Origin: Mariniblastus sp.
GTDB lineage: Bacteria; Planctomycetota; Planctomycetia; Pirellulales; Pirellulaceae
Length of the DNA stretch: 45,460 nt
Reading direction: 5' to 3'
NCBI GenBank assembly: GCA_023300235.1
Contig: JALZWN010000045.1
Coordinates: forward strand, 1 to 45,460
Below are positions 35,686 through 45,460 of this stretch, piece after piece. The stretch's first letter is position 1. The number at the start of each line of letters is the position of its first letter. Below the pieces are notes generated by a model that was not told the origin of the DNA, did not search any database, and saw only the letters and a list, made by a program, of their open reading frames with translations. The translations under genes and the position numbers were made by a program.

Positions 35686-36708
35686 TTAGCTGTTCAAGAT
35701 CGACTTCAGATCCGGCACCACTAAAACCCCATCGGCAGATTCAACAGCAGCCAATTTTGGCATTCCAGACAGCCAGGCAACGTCCGATGGCGTCGAGTTC
35801 GGGGTGCGTACGGTTCTGATTTGCACTTGAGTGTAGAACCCAACGTGTTGACCTTGGCCTAAGTGACAAATCATCAAGCGGCTCTCGGAGCGGTCCGTCG
35901 TTTGGAAAGGGATATTGAATTGTTCTGCCAGATTGATGATCGGCACGGGAATCCCTCGCCACATCACCATCCCCGTAACTTTCGGTAAAGCCATGGGAAG
36001 CGGCATCTCTGCCTTTTCATTCGTCTGAAGGATCTCTGCCACAAACGGCAACGGCAAACAAAACTGAAATGCGAGTTCACTGCCAATTCCGGCAGGAGAG
36101 AACACGACGATCTGACCTTTGGAGCGATTGGTATCGCCAACGACGACACCGTCCAAGTGACCGGCTGCTTTTGTTAGTTTGGCCAGTTGGTCATCAAGTC
36201 CGAAAGCCTTCAATGGGTTGATCACCAAACGGATTTCAATATCGTCGGTTTGCGTTTTAAACAAAGCCAGCGATTCAATGAACTCATTGTTTTGTTCGCC
36301 ATAGACACAAGCCGGCAAACGGTAGAAGTTTTCATCGTCAACGACAGTGGGGCGCGAAACGGAATCAACTCGGATCGCCAGCGACTTTTGATTTGAAACG
36401 CTTCGGACAATCAACAACGTTTTACCGGCTTCGGTTTGGACTGCCGAAGGAGCGAAGTCGTTGCTGATAAGGTCTCGGAGCGGAAAAACGGGGATCGTTT
36501 CACCGGCCAAAACCATCGCTTGGCCATTGTCGACCAACGATGCGTCGCCGACTTGGATCACGTTTCGGATCAACTGGGTGTCGACGCCGAATTCAGCTCC
36601 GCCAGTGGCAACGGTAACAATCTTCCGTGTTTGTTCTTTGACGCGGTTAGCTTTCGGCAAGTAGACCGTTTGCAGCGGATTTTGTTTTGAGAGTGTTGTT
36701 TCCATCAT
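35686..36708 (-). CDS. Double CheW-domain coupling protein (ChpC-position)
   Basis: 340 aa with two tandem CheW-like SH3-type domains, about 28-170 (IVTVATGGAEFGVDTQLIRNV, then TIPVFPLRDL) and about 192-338 (IVVFSPAG..., PFVAEIL, VTGMVMWRGIPVPIINL). CheW couples receptors to CheA. Its start overlaps the CheA stop (TAATG), so it is translationally coupled. A CheW-type gene at the end of the operon matches the position of chpC in Pil-Chp systems. Two domains in one chain could bridge receptor/kinase arrays. It ends at the terminator at 35588-35622. Confidence 0.9.
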   Translation of the reverse strand: MMETTLSKQNPLQTVYLPKANRVKEQTRKIVTVATGGAEFGVDTQLIRNVIQVGDASLVDNGQAMVLAGETIPVFPLRDLISNDFAPSAVQTEAGKTLLIVRSVSNQKSLAIRVDSVSRPTVVDDENFYRLPACVYGEQNNEFIESLALFKTQTDDIEIRLVINPLKAFGLDDQLAKLTKAAGHLDGVVVGDTNRSKGQIVVFSPAGIGSELAFQFCLPLPFVAEILQTNEKAEMPLPMALPKVTGMVMWRGIPVPIINLAEQFNIPFQTTDRSESRLMICHLGQGQHVGFYTQVQIRTVRTPNSTPSDVAWLSGMPKLAAVESADGVLVVPDLKSILNS

Positions 36709-39700
36709 TAGGCTCCAACCAATTCACGGCTTTGGGCGACCATGCGAGTGATCAATTCCATCAAGCGTTCATCGTTAAATGGCTTGGTCACGTGTTCGTT
36801 GGCTCCGGCTTCAGCGGCCATCTTCCGGTGTTTTTCAGCTGCTCGCGATGTTACCATCACAACTGGAGTCGATGAGAATTCGCTTTGGGTACGGATCCGG
36901 CGAACAAATTCTAGACCGTCCATGCGCGGCATTTCCATGTCGCACAAGAACACGTCTGGCGGTGTTTCCGCGTTGGCCAATTGCTCGATCGCGTCGACGC
37001 CGTCCTTCGCGTCCAAAACGTCCCAGCCGTGCAGACGTAGGAGGTTGGTTGTGACGCGGCGGACCGACAACGAATCGTCGATGACCATCGCCAGCTTGCG
37101 GCGGTTGGCGGCCATGGATTCAAGTCGCTGGAAGCTGCTGGACATTGCGGAGGTCGTTTCTTGACCGCACAAGTCAGCCGGATCTAGGATTGGAATCACG
37201 GTACCATCACCAGAGACCGTAGCACCGATGTAACCGGGGACGGTTCGCAGGTGATCGCCAAGCGTTTTGACCACGATATCCTGTCCACCTTCGATTGAAT
37301 CAACCGTAACAGCGGATTCATCATCGCCAGCACGAATGATCAACATTGGACGAGCTGATTCGAAGTGACTCTCGTCCGCGTCCGCCATGCCCATGTGAAC
37401 TGATAGATGTCGAAGTTGCAGAGTTCCGTCCGCGGTGCGAATCAACGCTTGTTCACCAACATGTGAAACGTTGCTTGGCTCCAAACGAGTGATCTGTTGG
37501 ATCGCCTGCATTGGCACGGCGAACTGATGGCCGTTTGATTCGACCATCAATGCACGAGTTGTAGCGAGTGTGGTTGGCAGGTGAATTGTGAACGTTGAAC
37601 CCTCGCCAATTTCGCTTTCGACGCCGATGGTGCCCTTCAAACGTTTGACCGCTTCACGAACCACGTCCATGCCAACACCTCGGCCTGAAACGTCGGTCAA
37701 TGAGTCGGCGGTGCTGAAACCGGGTAAGAAAATTAACTCGAGCAACTCTTGTTTATTCAGCGGCTGGCTCTCGCTGATCAAGCCTCGCTCAATTGCTTTC
37801 GCGCGAATTCTTTCGAGGTCAATTCCGCGTCCATCGTCGATGATACGCAGGGTAACACGCGTACCTTGGTTCAACGCTTGGAGCGTTAAGTTGGCTCGTT
37901 CGGGCTTGCCGGTTGCGCGTCGTTGTTTTGGAGTTTCGATGCCGTGATCAAGACCGTTGCGGACCAAGTGCAACAGCGGATCGATAATCTCTTCCAACAC
38001 GGTTTTGTCTAGTTCGGTGTTTCCACCGACGACTTTCAAGTCGACTTTCTTGCCAATCTTGTTCGAAACCGTTCGCACGGTTCGCTCAAGGCGATTCGCG
38101 ATGCTATCCACGGGAACCATGCGAATCTGCAGCAGTGTATCCTGTGCGTCGCGATTGTAGCGTTGCTGACGTCCGAGTAGTGAATGTAAATCACCGTGCA
38201 GGTTCTTCAATTCACTGGTAATCACGGCCACGTCGCTGGTGGCTTCGGAAAGCGATCGAGCGGTCAAATGGAAGTCGGTGTAGCGGTCAAATTCGAGTTC
38301 GTCGAGTTGATTCGATCGTTGTTCGATTCCATCGAAACGTAGTTTCTGGTTTTGATGATCGAAGACGTGAGTTCGTCGGCCCGACTTCAGTGCGTCAACA
38401 CTGTACCGAGTCTCTACTTCTTGAGCCACGTTTCGGAAACGCTGCAGCGAGGTGTTCATGTCCTCGATGCGAGCCTCAAAGTCAGACAAGCGTTGATTGA
38501 ATGCGGAACGGTTAACAACCATCTCGCCAATCAAAGCAACCAAGCCGTCTAGGCGATCAATCGGTACTCGCAAGTACTGTTGATCTTTCTTGGGTTTGGC
38601 TTTTTCGTCAGAAGCTTTATCAACAACCGGTGCTGCCTTTTGCTCGCCAATTTTGACGTCTGAAGTGGTCGAGAGCTTAGTTGACTTTACAGCCTGTTCG
38701 GCTTTCGCTTCAACAATAACGACTTCTGTGTGGGGTGCCGCGCCCTTGGTCGCTGCCAACTCGGCTGCATAATTAGCGTATAGCTTTGAAATAATACTGA
38801 TTGATTCTTCAGCGTCCGCGTCGCCCGCTTGAAGCGTCTGGACTTGGTCAGTCGTACGCAAAAACAAATCGACTTGAGCTTCGGTTGGCTCGGTTTGGCT
38901 GTCAGCAAGATAATCCAGCAAGTCTTCCATGCGGTGCGTCAGCCGAGTGATCACCTCAAGGCCAACCGCTGCTGCGGCTCCTTTGAGTGTGTGAGTGGAA
39001 CGGCGAACTTGGCCGAGCGAATCGACGTCGCTACGGTCGGTGTTCATTTTGTGCAAACCGGCATACATGCTGCGGAGATGGTCTTCGGCTTCTTCGGCGA
39101 AGATCTCAACCAGTTCATCTGGCAAGGTCATGCCGCTGGTCAGCTGCTTGCGAATTTCTTGAACGTCTTCGTCCGAGATCTCATCAACGACGGTTGGTGC
39201 GGTGGTTGCTGGGGTGCTCTGGTCGGCTTGGCCCGTAGTTTCTTCTTTGACTTGAGCAGCTTCAACGACGGGGCCAGCGATCGATTCGCCCGCGGTTACG
39301 GCCTCGATCTGTTTGTCGAAATCGATCGAAACCTTTTGTAGTTGTTGAGCCAGTTCGTCGAAATCAGTTTCCATTACGAAGATGTCTGAAAGCAAATCGG
39401 CAGCGTCTAAGCACAGGCTAACTTGCGTTTCGGTGGCTCCGCGTTCCTGTTCGAGCAATAGGTTTAGCAAGGTTTCCAAACGCCAGGTAAGTTTGCTGAC
39501 CGCGGGTGAACCTACGGCACCGGCGGCGCCCTTGAGTGTGTGGGCGGATCGGCGGATGTCGCTGATGGCTTCCATGTCATTGTGTTCAACACGAAGGCGA
39601 TCCAAGCCATCGGTGATCGTATTCAAGTGATCGTCGGCTTCTTCGGCGAAAATTTCCACCAACTCCTCTGGCATATTGCCGTTGGCACGAAGGTCGTCGA

Positions 39701-39734
39701 CGAATTCTTGAAGTTCAATTTTCGATTCTGACAT
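36708..39734 (-). CDS. cheA: Hybrid histidine kinase CheA with two HPt domains and a REC domain (ChpA-like)
   Basis: 1008 aa. HPt domains at about 22-125 (RRSAHTLKGAAG, His65) and about 205-310 (RRSTHTLKGAAA, His248) both keep the phosphorylatable His. An Ala/Lys/Thr linker follows, then the dimerisation region (about 385-540). The HATPase has N-box Asn593/His597 (LVRNGLDHG), DDGRGID (633-639) and GRGVGMD (684-690). A CheW regulatory domain lies at about 722-855. A C-terminal REC domain lies at about 880-1000 with Asp886/Asp887, phosphoacceptor Asp932, Thr962 and Lys984. Multi-HPt plus REC is typical of ChpA and PixL rather than of flagellar CheA. The receptor gene precedes it by 187 bases; the CheW gene follows with TAATG overlap. 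All catalytic residues are intact. Confidence 0.95.
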   Translation of the reverse strand: MSESKIELQEFVDDLRANGNMPEELVEIFAEEADDHLNTITDGLDRLRVEHNDMEAISDIRRSAHTLKGAAGAVGSPAVSKLTWRLETLLNLLLEQERGATETQVSLCLDAADLLSDIFVMETDFDELAQQLQKVSIDFDKQIEAVTAGESIAGPVVEAAQVKEETTGQADQSTPATTAPTVVDEISDEDVQEIRKQLTSGMTLPDELVEIFAEEAEDHLRSMYAGLHKMNTDRSDVDSLGQVRRSTHTLKGAAAAVGLEVITRLTHRMEDLLDYLADSQTEPTEAQVDLFLRTTDQVQTLQAGDADAEESISIISKLYANYAAELAATKGAAPHTEVVIVEAKAEQAVKSTKLSTTSDVKIGEQKAAPVVDKASDEKAKPKKDQQYLRVPIDRLDGLVALIGEMVVNRSAFNQRLSDFEARIEDMNTSLQRFRNVAQEVETRYSVDALKSGRRTHVFDHQNQKLRFDGIEQRSNQLDELEFDRYTDFHLTARSLSEATSDVAVITSELKNLHGDLHSLLGRQQRYNRDAQDTLLQIRMVPVDSIANRLERTVRTVSNKIGKKVDLKVVGGNTELDKTVLEEIIDPLLHLVRNGLDHGIETPKQRRATGKPERANLTLQALNQGTRVTLRIIDDGRGIDLERIRAKAIERGLISESQPLNKQELLELIFLPGFSTADSLTDVSGRGVGMDVVREAVKRLKGTIGVESEIGEGSTFTIHLPTTLATTRALMVESNGHQFAVPMQAIQQITRLEPSNVSHVGEQALIRTADGTLQLRHLSVHMGMADADESHFESARPMLIIRAGDDESAVTVDSIEGGQDIVVKTLGDHLRTVPGYIGATVSGDGTVIPILDPADLCGQETTSAMSSSFQRLESMAANRRKLAMVIDDSLSVRRVTTNLLRLHGWDVLDAKDGVDAIEQLANAETPPDVFLCDMEMPRMDGLEFVRRIRTQSEFSSTPVVMVTSRAAEKHRKMAAEAGANEHVTKPFNDERLMELITRMVAQSRELVGA

Positions 39735-39857
39735 GATATTTCTCGATTGAGGACACCGTGTTCAATGAGGAACGGGGATCCAATTGAATTTGGGGGGAGC
39801 CTTGGCTGATTAATGCGAGTGCTGCCGATAGGGTTCAAGCAGCAGAGAGAAATCGCC

Positions 39858-39900
39858 CGACCGACGCTGACGGTTTTAGATCCGTCAGCGCGAGGTCGGT
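39858..39900. promoter_or_regulatory. Stem-loop between receptor and cheA genes
   Basis: cgctgacgg (39865-39873) and ccgtcagcg (39882-39890) form a perfect 9-bp stem with an 8-base loop, extended by an imperfect cgacc/ggtcg pair. There is no U tract on the minus strand, so it looks more like an mRNA processing or partial attenuation element that would set the receptor to kinase ratio than a full terminator. Confidence 0.5.
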
Positions 39901-39921
39901 AATTTCTACCAACAGAGTTTT

Positions 39922-42840
39922 CTAGACTTCAACTGTTAGGAAAGTCTTCAACAGGCCGATGCTGGCGTCTTGGTAAGAACCATCGTTGCCGGCAAGCATT
40001 GCTCCGGTGACATCACCGGCGACTTCTGCTGCTGACACTTCAGCAACGCCCATGGCCCAGGCAGCGAACTGACGTCCTGAAGCTGGCTGGCAGTACTTAA
40101 TGTCACATCCAGCGATGCTAGAACCATTTGCGACTTCTGCATAAGCAGCTTGCACAGCAGACTCAGATCCTTCAAGAACCTGAAGGAAATGTGTCTCAGT
40201 GTGCAAGACCATTCCGGTCACTTCACGACCTGGGTTGGTTTCACGTGCTGAGGCAACCAAGCCATCTACGTCGCAGGTGCTTGACTTCACGCCGGTGTAA
40301 ACCAGGCAGTACAAGTCGGCTTGACCGCTGTTGACGATGTTAGAAACATCTTCAACTTGGCTAAGAACGTTTCGCTCTTCAGCGTCACTATCACGGTCCA
40401 AAACAAACTGAGATACCGATTCACCAAGCTGGTTCGCCAATGTCGCCAGAGACGTAACTTGCTCGGTCGCTTCACGAGACTTGTGAGCAGAGCTTTTGGT
40501 AGCATCAGAGATTTGGTTCATCGTATCGGCAATTTCTTGCGACGCTTTCGCTTGTGTCAACGCAGATGTCGAAACTTGCTGAATCATGTCTTCCAGCGAT
40601 TTCGAAACGTCGTTAATTTCAGCCAGCGTTTCACCCGCCTGAGAAGCAAGGTGAGAACCTTCCACAACCTCACGGGTTGATTCTTCCATGTCGGTGATCG
40701 CCTCAGACGTTTCCGTCTGAATCGTTTTAATCAGCGAGGCGATCTGCTTTGTCGCATCAGTAGATCGTTCAGCCAGACGCTCAACTTCTTCCGCAACAAC
40801 CGCAAAACCCTGTCCCGCGTCACCCGCCATCGCCGCCTGAATCGAAGCGTTCAACGCCAAGATAGAAGTACGGTCAGCAATGTCAGAAATCAACTGGACG
40901 ATCTCACCAATTTCTTGCGATGATTCACCCAGACGCTTAATACGTTTAGAAGTCTGTTGCACCTGTTCACGGATGCGATCCATACCTTCAACGGTGTTCG
41001 CCACGGCCTCGTAACCACGTGTCGCAGTTTCACGGGCTTGCTTCGCAACCGCCACCGAGTTTTCGGTTTCTTTCGCAACCGTCTGGAACTGGTCAGTCAT
41101 GCTCAACACCTTATTCGATGTTTGACCAATTCGAGCTGCTTGAGATTCACTTTCAGCGGACAACTTGTTCGATGCGTCTACAATCTCGTCCGCAGATGAG
41201 GTTACCATGTAAGACGCGTTTTGCACACGCTGGACAATACCGCGAAGTTCTTCCGCCATATGGTTAACCGAGCCCGCAATCGCACCCGTGATGTCACTAC
41301 GAACCTCGGCAGCAACTCCTAGGTTACCAGACGCGATCTGCTCCATCTCGCCAATCAAACTTTCAATCGACGATTCGATTTCAGCACGTTCATCAGAAGA
41401 CTGAATCAAAGACAGCGTGTTGTCAGACATCGCGTTCAACGCGACGGCAACGTCACCAAGTTCATCGTTGGTGATTTTTTCAGCACGAGCGTCGAACATA
41501 CCAATACCAATCATCGACAACATGTCGGTAATCGAGTCCGCTTGTTTTCGAATACGTCCAGCAATTAAGTAAATCGCAGTAAAACCAGCAATCGACGCTA
41601 ACAAGAACAAAAACAAGCCTTGCTGAGCGACAGAAAGGAAAGAAATTGGTCCCTTCACTTCCGCTTCGTCAATTTCTGACATCAACGCCCAAGTAATCGG
41701 TTGTGCCTGTCCTTCGACACCGGCGTAAATTTGTACCGGAGCCCACGCGCTGTATACAGGCTCGCCTCGGTAGTCAGGAATGATTTTTTTTCCAGAGTTA
41801 CCTTTAAATGCTTCCTGGGTTGCGATGGTGTCAACGGCCTGTTCAAAGGTCACGTCTTCACCTCGCTCTTCGGCAAAACGCGAGTTGTTACGCATCAAAA
41901 GGTCTTTTCCGACCGCATAAGTCTCACCTGTGTTACCTAGACCAGTACGTTCACCCATAATGGCCGCAATTTTATCCAAAGGCATCTGGAAGATCGCAAC
42001 GCCGATTTTTGTGTCACCTTCGTAGATCGGCGATGAAATGAAAGATGCCGGAGCTTCGTAAGAAGGAATGTAATCTTCATAGTCAACTAGAAAGACGTCA
42101 TCTTTCGATGTTGCATTGGCAGCCAATTCAAACGCTTTACCAAAGTTGGTTCCCGCGTATGGACCTTGCGACAATGAAGTCGTGAAGTCCAATTCCTTAA
42201 ACACGGAATAAACAATGTCGCCTGATTTCAGGTCGCACAAGAAAATATCGTAGTAACCAAACTTCTGCAGGTAACTTCGAACGATCGGGTGATACGTGCC
42301 ATGAAGTTTTGAGTAAGTAGTAGCATCCTCGGCAGCGTCCAATTTTTCCTTTGAACCAAGCGGATTGGGGTTGTTCGCAATGTATTGATGTTGCAAGAAA
42401 ATTGAATCGCTATCCAGTGGCCCGAGTTGTTCTGTGACTGGCGGTTTCTTCCCTGTAATGCCTTCAAATTCGTTGGTAAAGTTGATTTTGTAGTACGCTT
42501 CAACTTTTGTCCGCATCTCGGCTAGTTGATCAGCAGTGACTTCGGCTTCGGACGCCGCAGCAACTTCAGCAGCTGGGAACTGCTTCATCGCTTCAACGAT
42601 CATTGCGTTTTCGCTAAAGGTACGAACTTGATTTTCGATCAGCTCAAAGTAACCAGTTAGCTGGTTCGCCTTAACGGTCTTGATCGCTTCCAATTGGTCA
42701 ATCGCCTTGGTTTCAATCGCGGTGTAGGAAGACGAGTAAATCGACCAACCTACTACGAAAGTCGGCAGAGTACCAATAAGAAACAACAGAAAGAACAACT
42801 TCCTGGAGATGCTTTGGCTAATAAATTGAACAATATTCAT
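39922..42840 (-). CDS. PilJ-type chemoreceptor fused to a C-terminal BLUF blue-light domain
   Basis: 972 aa. TM1 (about 14-36), a large periplasmic dCache-like region (about 38-398), TM2 (about 403-428), HAMP (428-480) and a second HAMP-like segment (about 495-540). The MCP signalling hairpin (about 545-812) has tip [19 protein letters not shown]; the IQAAMAG and following ERLAERS are the PilJ/PixJ form, not the enteric form. A 28-residue linker precedes a BLUF domain (842-935). BLUF domains bind FAD and respond to blue light through Tyr, Asn, Gln and Trp/Met. All are present: Tyr848 (LVYTG), Asn869, Gln887 (FLQVLEG), Trp928 and Met930 (FAAWAMG), and the Gln-Trp and Gln-Met spacings equal those of AppA and PixD. 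A 37-residue tail follows. SD gagga lies before the ATG. The protein could sense both a periplasmic cue and light. Confidence 0.93.
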
Positions 42841-42952: not shown

Positions 42953-43723
42953 TTACCTTTGTGTGGCGAACCGTTTTAGTTCATCGCAGCCAAGTAGTTC
43001 GTCGGGGTCGATCAAAACGGTAGTCGCCTGATCGGTGACCGAAACGCTATCAGCGAAGTTAGCAATTCGATCGGACAGTCCAGCGAGAGGTTTACGCTCG
43101 CCGCTCAGGTTGCGGATGCCAAGTACCCGATCAACAACCAGAGCCGTGTGTGCGTTGTGACGCTCGCTATGGACAACAATAATCTTTTCACTTGCGGATT
43201 GGCGGTCACCAGGTAAGTCCAGCAGGTTACGGAAGTCCGTCACCGAAAGGATTTGCCCTCGCAAGTTAGTCACCCCACGAAGCCAAGCTGGCGTCCGCGG
43301 AAGAACGGTGACTTTTCCACAGCGATCAATTTCGCGAACTCCTGTCAAGGGAATTCCAAAAACTTGATCACCGACTGCGAATACGGCATGACGTGGTCCA
43401 ACGTCTTCTTGGTCCGTATCCGTTTGTTCTGTAGAGGCAGATTTTTTAGAGGCTAGTTTTTCAGAGGCAGATTTTTCGCCTGTTTCCAGTTCGGCAGTCA
43501 GCCCGGTTAGAATGGCGTCAAGTGCTCGTTCGCCCGGGAAACTGCCATCGTCTGATCCGCTATCTTGGTTGGCAAGGATCTTGGCTAGTTGCGCGTCGTT
43601 TTGAGCATCATCTTGGTCGTTGTCTTCAAGCCAATCACCAGCATCATTGCCAAAGGCGGCTAGCAGTGCGTCTTGCAAGTCGTCGCGATCTGACTTGGAC
43701 GGGTCCGTATTTGAATTGGACAT
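42953..43723 (-). CDS. cheW: CheW-like coupling protein (PilI-position) with acidic N-terminal extension
   Basis: 256 aa. The first 105 residues are Asp/Ser/Lys-rich, largely disordered, with a short repeat (SASEKLASKKSAS). The CheW domain spans about 110-250 (HAVFAVGDQVFGIPLTGVREI, TPAWLRGVTNLRGQILSVTDFR, HTALVVDRVLGIRNL), with the conserved NLRG core that binds receptor and kinase. It is longer than PilI (about 180 aa) because of the extension. The gene sits between the PilH-like regulator and the receptor, the same place as pilI. The upstream gap is 63 bases and the downstream gap 112 bases. Confidence 0.93.
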   Translation of the reverse strand: MSNSNTDPSKSDRDDLQDALLAAFGNDAGDWLEDNDQDDAQNDAQLAKILANQDSGSDDGSFPGERALDAILTGLTAELETGEKSASEKLASKKSASTEQTDTDQEDVGPRHAVFAVGDQVFGIPLTGVREIDRCGKVTVLPRTPAWLRGVTNLRGQILSVTDFRNLLDLPGDRQSASEKIIVVHSERHNAHTALVVDRVLGIRNLSGERKPLAGLSDRIANFADSVSVTDQATTVLIDPDELLGCDELKRFATQR

Positions 43724-43786: not shown

Positions 43787-44164
43787 CTACGGAGTCGCAA
43801 CGGAGATCAGGCTCTCCACTGACTCGATTAATTTCTCTGGATCAACTGGCTTGGCCAGGTATCCATCGGCTCCCTGTCGTTGACTCCAGATACGATCTTT
43901 TTCCATCGCCTTGGAGGTTACGATCATGACCTTGATGGCAAGATCTGGATCTGACTTGATCGAACGGCAGACTTGGTAGCCGTTCTTTTTTGGAAGGACG
44001 ATGTCTAACACAACCAGTTCAGGGTGATGTTCGAGTGTTAACTCAATCGCCTGCTGCCCGTCTTCTGCGGTCAACACGTGGTAGCCTTGTTGCTCAAGGA
44101 TGCCAGCAATTTTTCGCCGAGTCGTGGGGCTATCTTCAGCTACCAAGATGGTTTGTTTTTCCAT
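43787..44164 (-). CDS. Single-domain response regulator, PilH-like
   Basis: 125 aa, one receiver domain. Acidic pocket Glu10/Asp11 (VAEDSPTTRRK), phosphoacceptor Asp54 (LVVLDIVLPKKNG), switch Thr83 (IVTSKAMEKD) and Lys105 (YLAKPVD). The pattern IWSQRQGADGYLAKPV resembles PilH and PixH, as does the position just before the CheW gene. It has no output domain, so it acts as a phosphate sink or a direct-binding CheY-type signal. PilH in Pseudomonas opposes PilG at the pilus motors; the same here is inference. Confidence 0.92.
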   Translation of the reverse strand: MEKQTILVAEDSPTTRRKIAGILEQQGYHVLTAEDGQQAIELTLEHHPELVVLDIVLPKKNGYQVCRSIKSDPDLAIKVMIVTSKAMEKDRIWSQRQGADGYLAKPVDPEKLIESVESLISVATP

Positions 44165-44203: not shown

Positions 44204-44728
44204 CTACCAGTTCTTGGTGAACTCTTCGACGAACAATTCCATGCTCTGTTCGACTTGCCTGACAACACTAGATTCAGATCCTAAGCGTTGGATGGTGGCT
44301 ACAAAAACTGTTGCACAGACTTTCGCCATTGAAACGCCAAGCTGAGTGTGTGTGGCGACTGAATTTTCGTCGACGGAGTCAAAGAACACGCGAACGAAAG
44401 AATGTTTCCACGACTGGCTTTTAACCACCTTGCGATGCTCATTGATTTTCTTAATGGTCGACTGCATCGCGACTCTTATATCTTCCATGTCATCTAGGAG
44501 ATGAGCTTCAGAGAAGTCTATTAGCATCTTGAGCATTCGCTCGGACGTCACATCGGATTCGCCAACTTGGACGTCGCGGTAGCCTTCTTTGGCAACAGCA
44601 AGCTGATGTTCAAGCTGGCAGACCAAGTCAATGCACGCGATTTCCATCTCGGTGTCAGTGTTGATGGGAGCTGCAGCTTTTGTTGGCTGGCTGGTTATCG
44701 TTTTAGATTGTTGGGGTGCGTGGTTCAT
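44204..44728 (-). CDS. Unknown 174-aa protein between the two response regulators
   Basis: I do not recognise a family. The N-terminus (about 1-25) is polar and disordered. The rest is mostly helical with heptad-like stretches (IDLVCQLEHQLAVAKEG, LDDMEDIRVAMQSTIKKINEH, VRQVEQSMELFVEEF). No signal peptide or membrane segment is seen, so it is cytoplasmic. The gaps are 89 bases upstream and 39 bases downstream, on the same strand, which indicates an operon. Pil-Chp and Pix operons I know of have no gene here, so it may be a system-specific adaptor, phosphatase or regulator. No CheZ, CheC or CheX motif was identifiable. Confidence 0.82.
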   Translation of the reverse strand: MNHAPQQSKTITSQPTKAAAPINTDTEMEIACIDLVCQLEHQLAVAKEGYRDVQVGESDVTSERMLKMLIDFSEAHLLDDMEDIRVAMQSTIKKINEHRKVVKSQSWKHSFVRVFFDSVDENSVATHTQLGVSMAKVCATVFVATIQRLGSESSVVRQVEQSMELFVEEFTKNW

Positions 44729-44817: not shown

Positions 44818-45460
44818 TTAGGCGTGAGTTCCAATGAAGCTACGGATCTTTTCAAGCAAGTCTTTTGATTCAAATGGCTTGGTCAGGTAACCGTCGCAAC
44901 CACTCATGCGGCCGCGGAGTTTGTCAAAGACGCCGTCCTTGCCCGAAAGCATGATCACGGGGATGTGTTTCGTTTTGGCATGCTTCTTAATGAATTTGCA
45001 AAGCTTGTAGCCGTCAAGGCGAGGCATGTTGATGTCTGACAAAATCATGGCCGGGTTGCATTCAGACATCTTGTTGAGTGCCTCAACGCCATCTTTAGCC
45101 TGGACGACATGAAATCCTTCACGCTCCAAGGTCATCATCAGCAACTTGCGGATCGTAGGGCTGTCGTCAACGGTCAAGATTGTTAGCTTCTCGCCAGCGT
45201 TTGCCGGGGCAACGGTAGGTGTTGAATGTGGTGCGACAGCAGCTTCATGAACTTCGTCCGCAAGCTCTTCAGCATCGGCGGCAATGGCCTCTTCTCGTTC
45301 TTTTTCTTCTTGCTCCGCTTTGGCAGCTGCTTCTGCTTGTTGTTTTTCTTTTTCTTCTTGCTCTGCTTTGGCGGCAGCTTCTGCTTGTTGTTTTTCTTTT
45401 TCTTCTTGCTCTGCTTTGGCGGCAGCTTCTGCTTGTTGTTTTTCTTTTTCTTCTTGCTCT
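44818..45460 (-). CDS. PilG-like response regulator with long helical repeat extension (5' end outside window)
   Basis: At least 213 codons, open to the right edge. The C-terminal receiver domain (about the last 122 residues) has LTVDDSPTIRKLL, phosphoacceptor Asp in ILSDINMPRLDGYKLC, then VIMLSGKDGVFDKLRG and GYLTKPFE. This is the PilG/PixG form, including the unusual KDG-FDK sequence. The visible N-terminal part is a charged helix made of 16-residue units with consensus AEQEEKEKQQAEAAAK, then an acidic linker. A TTG at 45177 could be misread as a start, but the frame stays open and protein-like beyond it. PilG stimulates pilus extension in Pseudomonas; the extension is unusual. More domains may lie further upstream. 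Confidence 0.88.
   Translation of the reverse strand, partial: EQEEKEKQQAEAAAKAEQEEKEKQQAEAAAKAEQEEKEKQQAEAAAKAEQEEKEREEAIAADAEELADEVHEAAVAPHSTPTVAPANAGEKLTILTVDDSPTIRKLLMMTLEREGFHVVQAKDGVEALNKMSECNPAMILSDINMPRLDGYKLCKFIKKHAKTKHIPVIMLSGKDGVFDKLRGRMSGCDGYLTKPFESKDLLEKIRSFIGTHA
45311..45460 (-). repeat. 48-bp in-frame tandem repeat inside the PilG-like gene
   Basis: Units begin at plus-strand 45311, 45359, 45407 and 45455 (the last cut by the window edge), exactly 48 bases apart. The units from 45359 onward look identical; the first differs by a few third-position changes. Each encodes 16 residues of Glu/Lys/Gln/Ala-rich helix on the minus strand. Recent expansion is likely, and copy number may vary between strains. 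Confidence 0.92.

Follow-up and report, generated by a model that had tools for sequence, protein, structure and literature searches.

What does a blue-light photoreceptor domain do when it sits on the very tail of a chemoreceptor? The question is raised by one gene in the window, by which we mean the whole 45,460-nucleotide stretch of Mariniblastus sp. DNA analyzed here. A sequence-only reading of the gene saw in it a PilJ-type chemoreceptor (MCP) with a dCache-like sensor and a C-terminal BLUF domain, and proposed a two-input receptor that integrates a chemical cue with blue light.

Layout of the Fused Receptor

The gene and its parts are laid out as follows.

39922..42840, minus strand: MCP-BLUF fusion receptor, 972 aa (one open frame from ATG; Pfam HAMP, MCPsignal and BLUF)
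42739..42795, minus strand: predicted transmembrane (TM) segment 1, residues 16-34 (Kyte-Doolittle window 19, peak 2.02)
41617..42738, minus strand: extracytoplasmic sensor region, approximately residues 35-408, weakly Cache-like (dCache_1 below cut-off, residues 262-370)
41560..41616, minus strand: predicted TM segment 2, residues 409-427 (Kyte-Doolittle peak 2.36)
41419..41559, minus strand: HAMP, residues 428-474 (PF00672, E 3.4e-7)
40501..41049, minus strand: MCP signaling domain (MCPsignal), residues 598-780 (PF00015, E 6e-41)
40315..40404, minus strand: linker, residues 813-842 (alignment)
40048..40314, minus strand: BLUF domain, residues 843-931 (PF04940; Foldseek to PixD/AppA)
39925..40047, minus strand: C-terminal cap, residues 932-972 (alignment)

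The frame holds no internal stop, and Pfam confirms what had been proposed of the chain as a whole, namely that a transmembrane chemoreceptor and a BLUF domain share it in the order TM-sensor-TM-HAMP-MCPsignal-BLUF, in frame on the minus strand. The signaling hairpin scores 140.5 bits against a curated PF00015 cut-off of 34.6, which places the protein among the MCPs, while PF00672 is reported as two stretches. The first part of the linker aligns to the C-terminal tail of orthologues that lack BLUF, and the C-terminal cap is common to all fused copies and shorter in this one.

The sensor is harder to name. The dCache_1 match, at E 0.009 and 16 bits, stays below the cut-off of 45 and does not bear out the "dCache-like" label; Pfam finds no PilJ N-terminal domain in the region, and a sequence search found no solved relative of it. 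The term "PilJ-type" thus rests on the surrounding operon, which is Pil/Pix-like, and names the pathway rather than the receptor's sensor. The full-length AF2 model, built from three sequences, has a mean pLDDT of 42, too low to serve for the proposed placement of BLUF next to HAMP.

Fold and Photochemical Core of the BLUF Domain

PF04940 matches residues 843-931 (E 2.3e-15; 56.9 bits against a cut-off of 25), within the stretch, residues 842-935, where the sequence-only reading had placed a BLUF domain. The AF2 model of this region (mean pLDDT 74) finds PixD/Slr1694 as its top Foldseek match (E 1e-10) and superposes on AppA with an rmsd of 1.2 Å over 96 columns, so that the isolated C-terminal region is a predicted BLUF fold. 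All five residues singled out from the sequence are in place by alignment: Tyr848, Asn869, Gln887, Trp928 and Met930 align, respectively, with Tyr8, Asn32, Gln50, Trp91 and Met93 of PixD and with Tyr21, Asn45, Gln63, Trp104 and Met106 of AppA. None of the four fused copies that we found lacks the Tyr–Gln photochemical pair.

Distribution and Origin of the Fusion

Those four copies come from a survey of 28 genus genomes, five of which carry BLUF: four as a fusion (the window genome G000, G025, G001 and G009) and one as a short protein (G021). G025 is a single-contig genome of 6,570,840 bp, apparently that of the cultured Mariniblastus fucicola FC18, and G001 and G009 are metagenome-assembled genomes (MAGs) of uncultured Pirellulaceae. 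The four fused genes share their operon position, and the presence of the same fusion in three other genus genomes means that it is due neither to chance nor to misassembly. Six syntenic receptor orthologues, 62-68% identical, lack BLUF (G014, G015, G013, G020, G006 and G010) and end in a short tail where the fused copies run into BLUF; the operon order is the same across the receptor orthologues. Sequence 3′ of the BLUF-less receptors yielded only short, weak BLUF matches (E > 0.03). What these comparisons establish is an in-frame junction of BLUF to the C-terminal tail of the receptor, a single family made up of the four fused BLUFs, and the existence of syntenic orthologues that do without the domain.

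Set against 40 other BLUFs, the fused domains form one group with bootstrap 91, which argues for a single fusion event. In the receptor tree, three of the fused copies are each paired with a BLUF-less one (G025 and G015, G001 and G006, G009 and G013), and the concatenated operon tree agrees. This pattern could have arisen by one gain and some five subsequent losses, by several gains from a common source, or by exchange of 3′ ends between species, and the BLUF tree of the fused copies, with its four taxa, is compatible with all three histories.

Beyond the genus, samples of 294 phylum and 296 order genomes contained no other BLUF frame long enough to hold this receptor. The three longest other BLUF frames were considered as MCP fusions and rejected, none having an MCP partner as judged by eye; in L030 the neighbor of BLUF is an EAL-like frame, in L035 BLUF is extended at its C-terminus, and in L040 it comes with a cyclase-like part. 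When contigs were scanned with a profile of the fused BLUF family, the matches were confined to the two Pirellulaceae MAGs and a pair of short BLUFs from proteobacteria; of the best 30 tblastn matches on plasmids, none was an annotated MCP. The short BLUF protein of G021, a genome with no close receptor orthologue, stands alone at L053:1492-1920.

Erosion of the Copy in the Window

Is the BLUF domain of the window as well preserved as its photochemical core? We compared the fused copies over 17 near-invariant columns, those in which 40 non-fused BLUFs reach a conservation of 95% or more. Six of these columns (S>G, L>V, I>V, D>G, R>S and H>I) are changed in the window copy and none in the other three fused copies, which leaves the window copy alone among the four in departing from the BLUF pattern by this measure; each of the 40 non-fused BLUFs, left out and tested likewise, differs at no more than three. 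Two of the affected sites deserve to be located.

40291..40293, minus strand: Gly850 in place of an invariant Ser (40 of 40 other BLUFs), two residues past the photoactive Tyr848 (alignment)
40114..40125, minus strand: eroded BLUF relay motif, residues 906-909, here G-S-S-I (alignment to 40 other BLUFs)

Elsewhere residues 906-909 read D-x-R-H in 97-100% of the 40 other BLUFs, and the lost relay residues are the equivalents of AppA Asp82, Arg84 and His85, a numbering checked on AppA chain alignments. In PixD numbering, the lost S10, D69, R71 and H72 are each 97-100% conserved in the 40 other BLUFs and are kept in the other three fused copies. Rates of change tell a similar story. For pairs among the other fused copies the BLUF distance is smaller than the MCP distance (0.30 vs. 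0.55; 0.65-0.68 vs. 0.94-1.00), whereas in every pair that includes the window copy it is larger (1.03-1.34 vs. 0.74-0.99).

In simulations of AppA, the flavin of the light state slides towards His85, and Arg84 switches its salt-bridge partner from Asp82 to Asp28, relaying the change to the β-sheet; Asp82 had earlier been proposed from FTIR as a signal-transduction site (PMC10278134). This role of the three residues, which derives mainly from simulation and from one FTIR observation in AppA, may not be transferable to an MCP fusion. Judged by its residues, the window copy has kept the photochemical pair while the usual path out of the flavin pocket is gone; given the loss of the relay residues, the light input in this strain is probably weakened, altered or rewired. 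To call the domain simply dead would be wrong, given its open 972-aa frame and kept Tyr/Gln/Asn core. The copies of M. fucicola and the two MAGs look fully equipped. Thus, of the earlier proposal of a working two-input light receptor, the intact core stands, but function was deduced from five residues, and more than a third of the near-invariant positions have been lost here.

A Pil/Pix-Like Operon Around a Sole Chemoreceptor

The genes that flank the receptor indicate the pathway into which it would signal.

35686..36708, minus strand: CheW-domain protein with two CheW stretches (Pfam)
36708..39734, minus strand: CheA hybrid kinase, ChpA/PixL-like, with two Hpt, HATPase, CheW and REC (Pfam; syntenic in relatives)
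42953..43723, minus strand: CheW in the PilI/PixI position (Pfam; syntenic)
43787..44164, minus strand: REC protein in the PilH/PixH position (Pfam; syntenic)
44204..44728, minus strand: conserved operon protein, 174 aa, family unassigned (present in relatives)
44818..45460, minus strand: REC protein with a charged-repeat N-terminus in the PilG/PixG position, ending at the contig edge (Pfam; relatives)

Read in their own direction, the genes run REC, 174-aa protein, REC, CheW, MCP-BLUF, CheA and double CheW. The succession REC-REC-CheW-MCP-CheA (multi-Hpt, REC)-CheW corresponds to the Pil/Pix chemosensory operon order, here with one extra gene. Both cheA and cheW adjoin the receptor gene and are syntenic in relatives, which provides it with the linked partners expected of an MCP. 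The 174-aa protein between the two REC genes has no Pfam or NCBIfam match, and its identity among relatives is 26-33%. The REC protein at the contig edge (44818-45460) carries in its N-terminal part a near-perfect tandem repeat, EQEEKEKQQAEAAAKA.

Apart from this receptor the genome (94.8% complete) yielded no MCP, and CheR was not detected in it, both statements being provisional because the compared genomes are 82-95% complete; the window genome, G001 and G009 have one MCP each. Adaptation through CheR methylation is common in MCP systems and does not define them, and some Pix-type systems may likewise operate without CheR.

As to output, contig C243 of the genome encodes two PilB-like T2SSE proteins with MshEN, a PilT-like T2SSE and a PilC-like T2SSF, and these matches suggest that the type IV pilus machinery is present. 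On contig C67, a large secretin gene (L095:2849-8281) is followed, two genes on, by a 238-aa protein with only the FliG C-terminal domain. Given this FliG_C protein, the output might instead be flagellar; no flagella were seen in M. fucicola (PMC7717058).

How Light Might Reach the Kinase

The reading that we favor, with somewhat better than even confidence, is that this receptor serves as the sole chemoreceptor of a Pil/Pix-like operon and that the BLUF domain of its family lets light bias CheA, probably towards type IV pili, the input of the window copy being probably weakened or rewired. The BLUF domain of the family would bind flavin and respond to blue light with a red shift through its Tyr–Gln pair. 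Illumination would alter the hydrogen bonds among Tyr, Gln and flavin, upon which the sheet and the C-terminal cap would move. By general MCP topology, a domain at the C-terminus would come to lie near the base of the signaling hairpin. There, tethered by approximately 30 residues close to the membrane-side base, BLUF could shift the on/off balance of the receptor; CheA would then integrate light with the periplasmic cue, and the output would probably be exerted on type IV pili. A broader proposition, to which we give rather less than even credence, is that a BLUF-gated receptor, in some of these genomes the sole one, joins a periplasmic cue and blue light to set the pilus behavior of surface-dwelling marine planctomycetes, its light module having been gained once, lost several times in sister species and partly retuned in this strain.

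Several other accounts of the same facts must be weighed. That two genes were spuriously joined by assembly or annotation has a negligible probability: most genus genomes are indeed fragmented assemblies, but the same junction recurs in four genomes, one of them a single 6.57-Mb contig, with a conserved C-terminal cap, and four independent copies rule the artefact out. More serious, though still unlikely in our estimation, is that the BLUF domain of the window is merely carried along and decaying, towards the loss that sister lineages may already have undergone. The six lost near-invariant residues fit this account, as does the patchy spread, with BLUF-less orthologues sister to each of three fused copies, and the lack of remnants in the BLUF-less genes implies that loss can be clean. 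Against it, the frame has stayed open over 130 codons, and what has been kept is exactly the photochemical core, which random decay would not favor. The sequence appears to fit decay and a rewired output alike.

At the opposite extreme, the protein of the window could be a fully working dual-input receptor, with ligand and blue light acting on the same helical bundle. We consider this improbable: the intact frame, the kept Tyr848, Gln887, Asn869, Trp928 and Met930, and a BLUF part that differs little in base composition from the remaining gene would be expected of such a receptor, but S10, D69, R71 and H72 are missing here although the other three fused copies have them, and the window BLUF changes faster. 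About equally doubtful is a use of the BLUF fold for something other than light, such as redox or flavin sensing or docking at the receptor tail, an idea suggested by analogy. C-terminal non-light sensors such as PilZ and hemerythrin are established on MCPs (PMC13401364), and flavin-based blue-light proteins often have other roles beside light-dependent ones, according to a review (PMC4844311), but the retention of the Tyr–Gln pair in every fused copy speaks against it.

Relation to Known Systems

In cyanobacterial PixJ, the photosensor sits before the signaling domain. PixJ resembles the present receptor in being the light-sensing receptor of a Pil/Pix operon that drives type IV pili, and differs in that its photosensor is a cyanobacteriochrome rather than BLUF (PMC5812497). 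PixD/Slr1694, the closest solved fold to the window BLUF by Foldseek, feeds type IV pilus motility together with the CheY-PATAN regulator PixE, but is a separate short protein that acts at the response regulator and is not fused to a receptor (PMC5812497). The BLUF domain of AppA (PDB 2iyg, 4hh1) shares the fold and the Tyr21/Asn45/Gln63/Trp104/Met106 set, in contrast to its Asp82/Arg84/His85, which are Gly/Ser/Ile in the window copy. BLUF proteins at large were 64% short and 34% EAL-linked in a 2014 census (PMC4844311).

The nearest precedents are MCPs with a C-terminal PYP domain, followed by DcrH and Tlp1/Aer. Twelve PYP-MCP fusions, including those of Methylomicrobium alcaliphilum and Nitrincola alkalilacustris, carry a blue-light domain C-terminal to a HAMP-MCP receptor; PYP binds p-coumaric acid, has an unrelated fold and is not accompanied by BLUF (PMC12826048). 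The PYP domain on its own was shown to undergo a photocycle, and tests for phototaxis, made in a single organism, did not detect it (PMC12826048). DcrH of Desulfovibrio vulgaris (hemerythrin) and Tlp1/Aer of Azospirillum brasilense (PilZ) likewise place a second sensory domain after the MCP signaling domain, and in DcrH the periplasmic and HAMP parts are there as well, although the cue of these proteins is oxygen or c-di-GMP and not light; how a signal passes from hemerythrin to the MCP in DcrH is described as inadequately understood (PMC13401364). No BLUF-MCP chain is described in the papers searched, a provisional absence given that subscription literature and cross-phylum architectures lay largely outside the search. 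The earlier suggestion of an undescribed architecture survives to that extent, but C-terminal PYP, hemerythrin and PilZ domains on MCPs make it less isolated than had been claimed.

The BLUF-fused receptors and their BLUF-less syntenic orthologues amount to natural paired constructs for a tail-mounted light sensor on a chemoreceptor array, and light offers a clean on/off stimulus for asking whether and how a C-terminal domain biases an MCP. Since the cultured M. fucicola FC18 apparently carries a fused copy, relatives of its kind are a better place for such tests than the window copy. If light sensing proves true, a photoresponse would be added to the planctomycetes, for which none is described in the papers searched.

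A Conserved Hairpin Between Receptor and Kinase Genes

The gap between the receptor gene and cheA holds one further element.

39844..39911, minus strand: covarying hairpin with two conserved internal loops, in the receptor-cheA gap (covariation)

The hairpin, approximately 70 nt long and without an Rfam match for the copy in the window, has 10 of its 24 pairs changed on both sides, with 98% of cells paired and a covariation that none of 500 shuffles equals. It occurs once per genome in seven of the 28 genus genomes, always at the receptor-cheA junction. We considered it as a part of the light system and rejected the idea, since genomes with BLUF and genomes lacking it both carry the hairpin, which was not found in the BLUF-bearing G025. 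This RNA-like hairpin is possibly a processing or expression-balancing element. Further copies lie at the same junction in L069, L070, L071, L073, L074 and G009.
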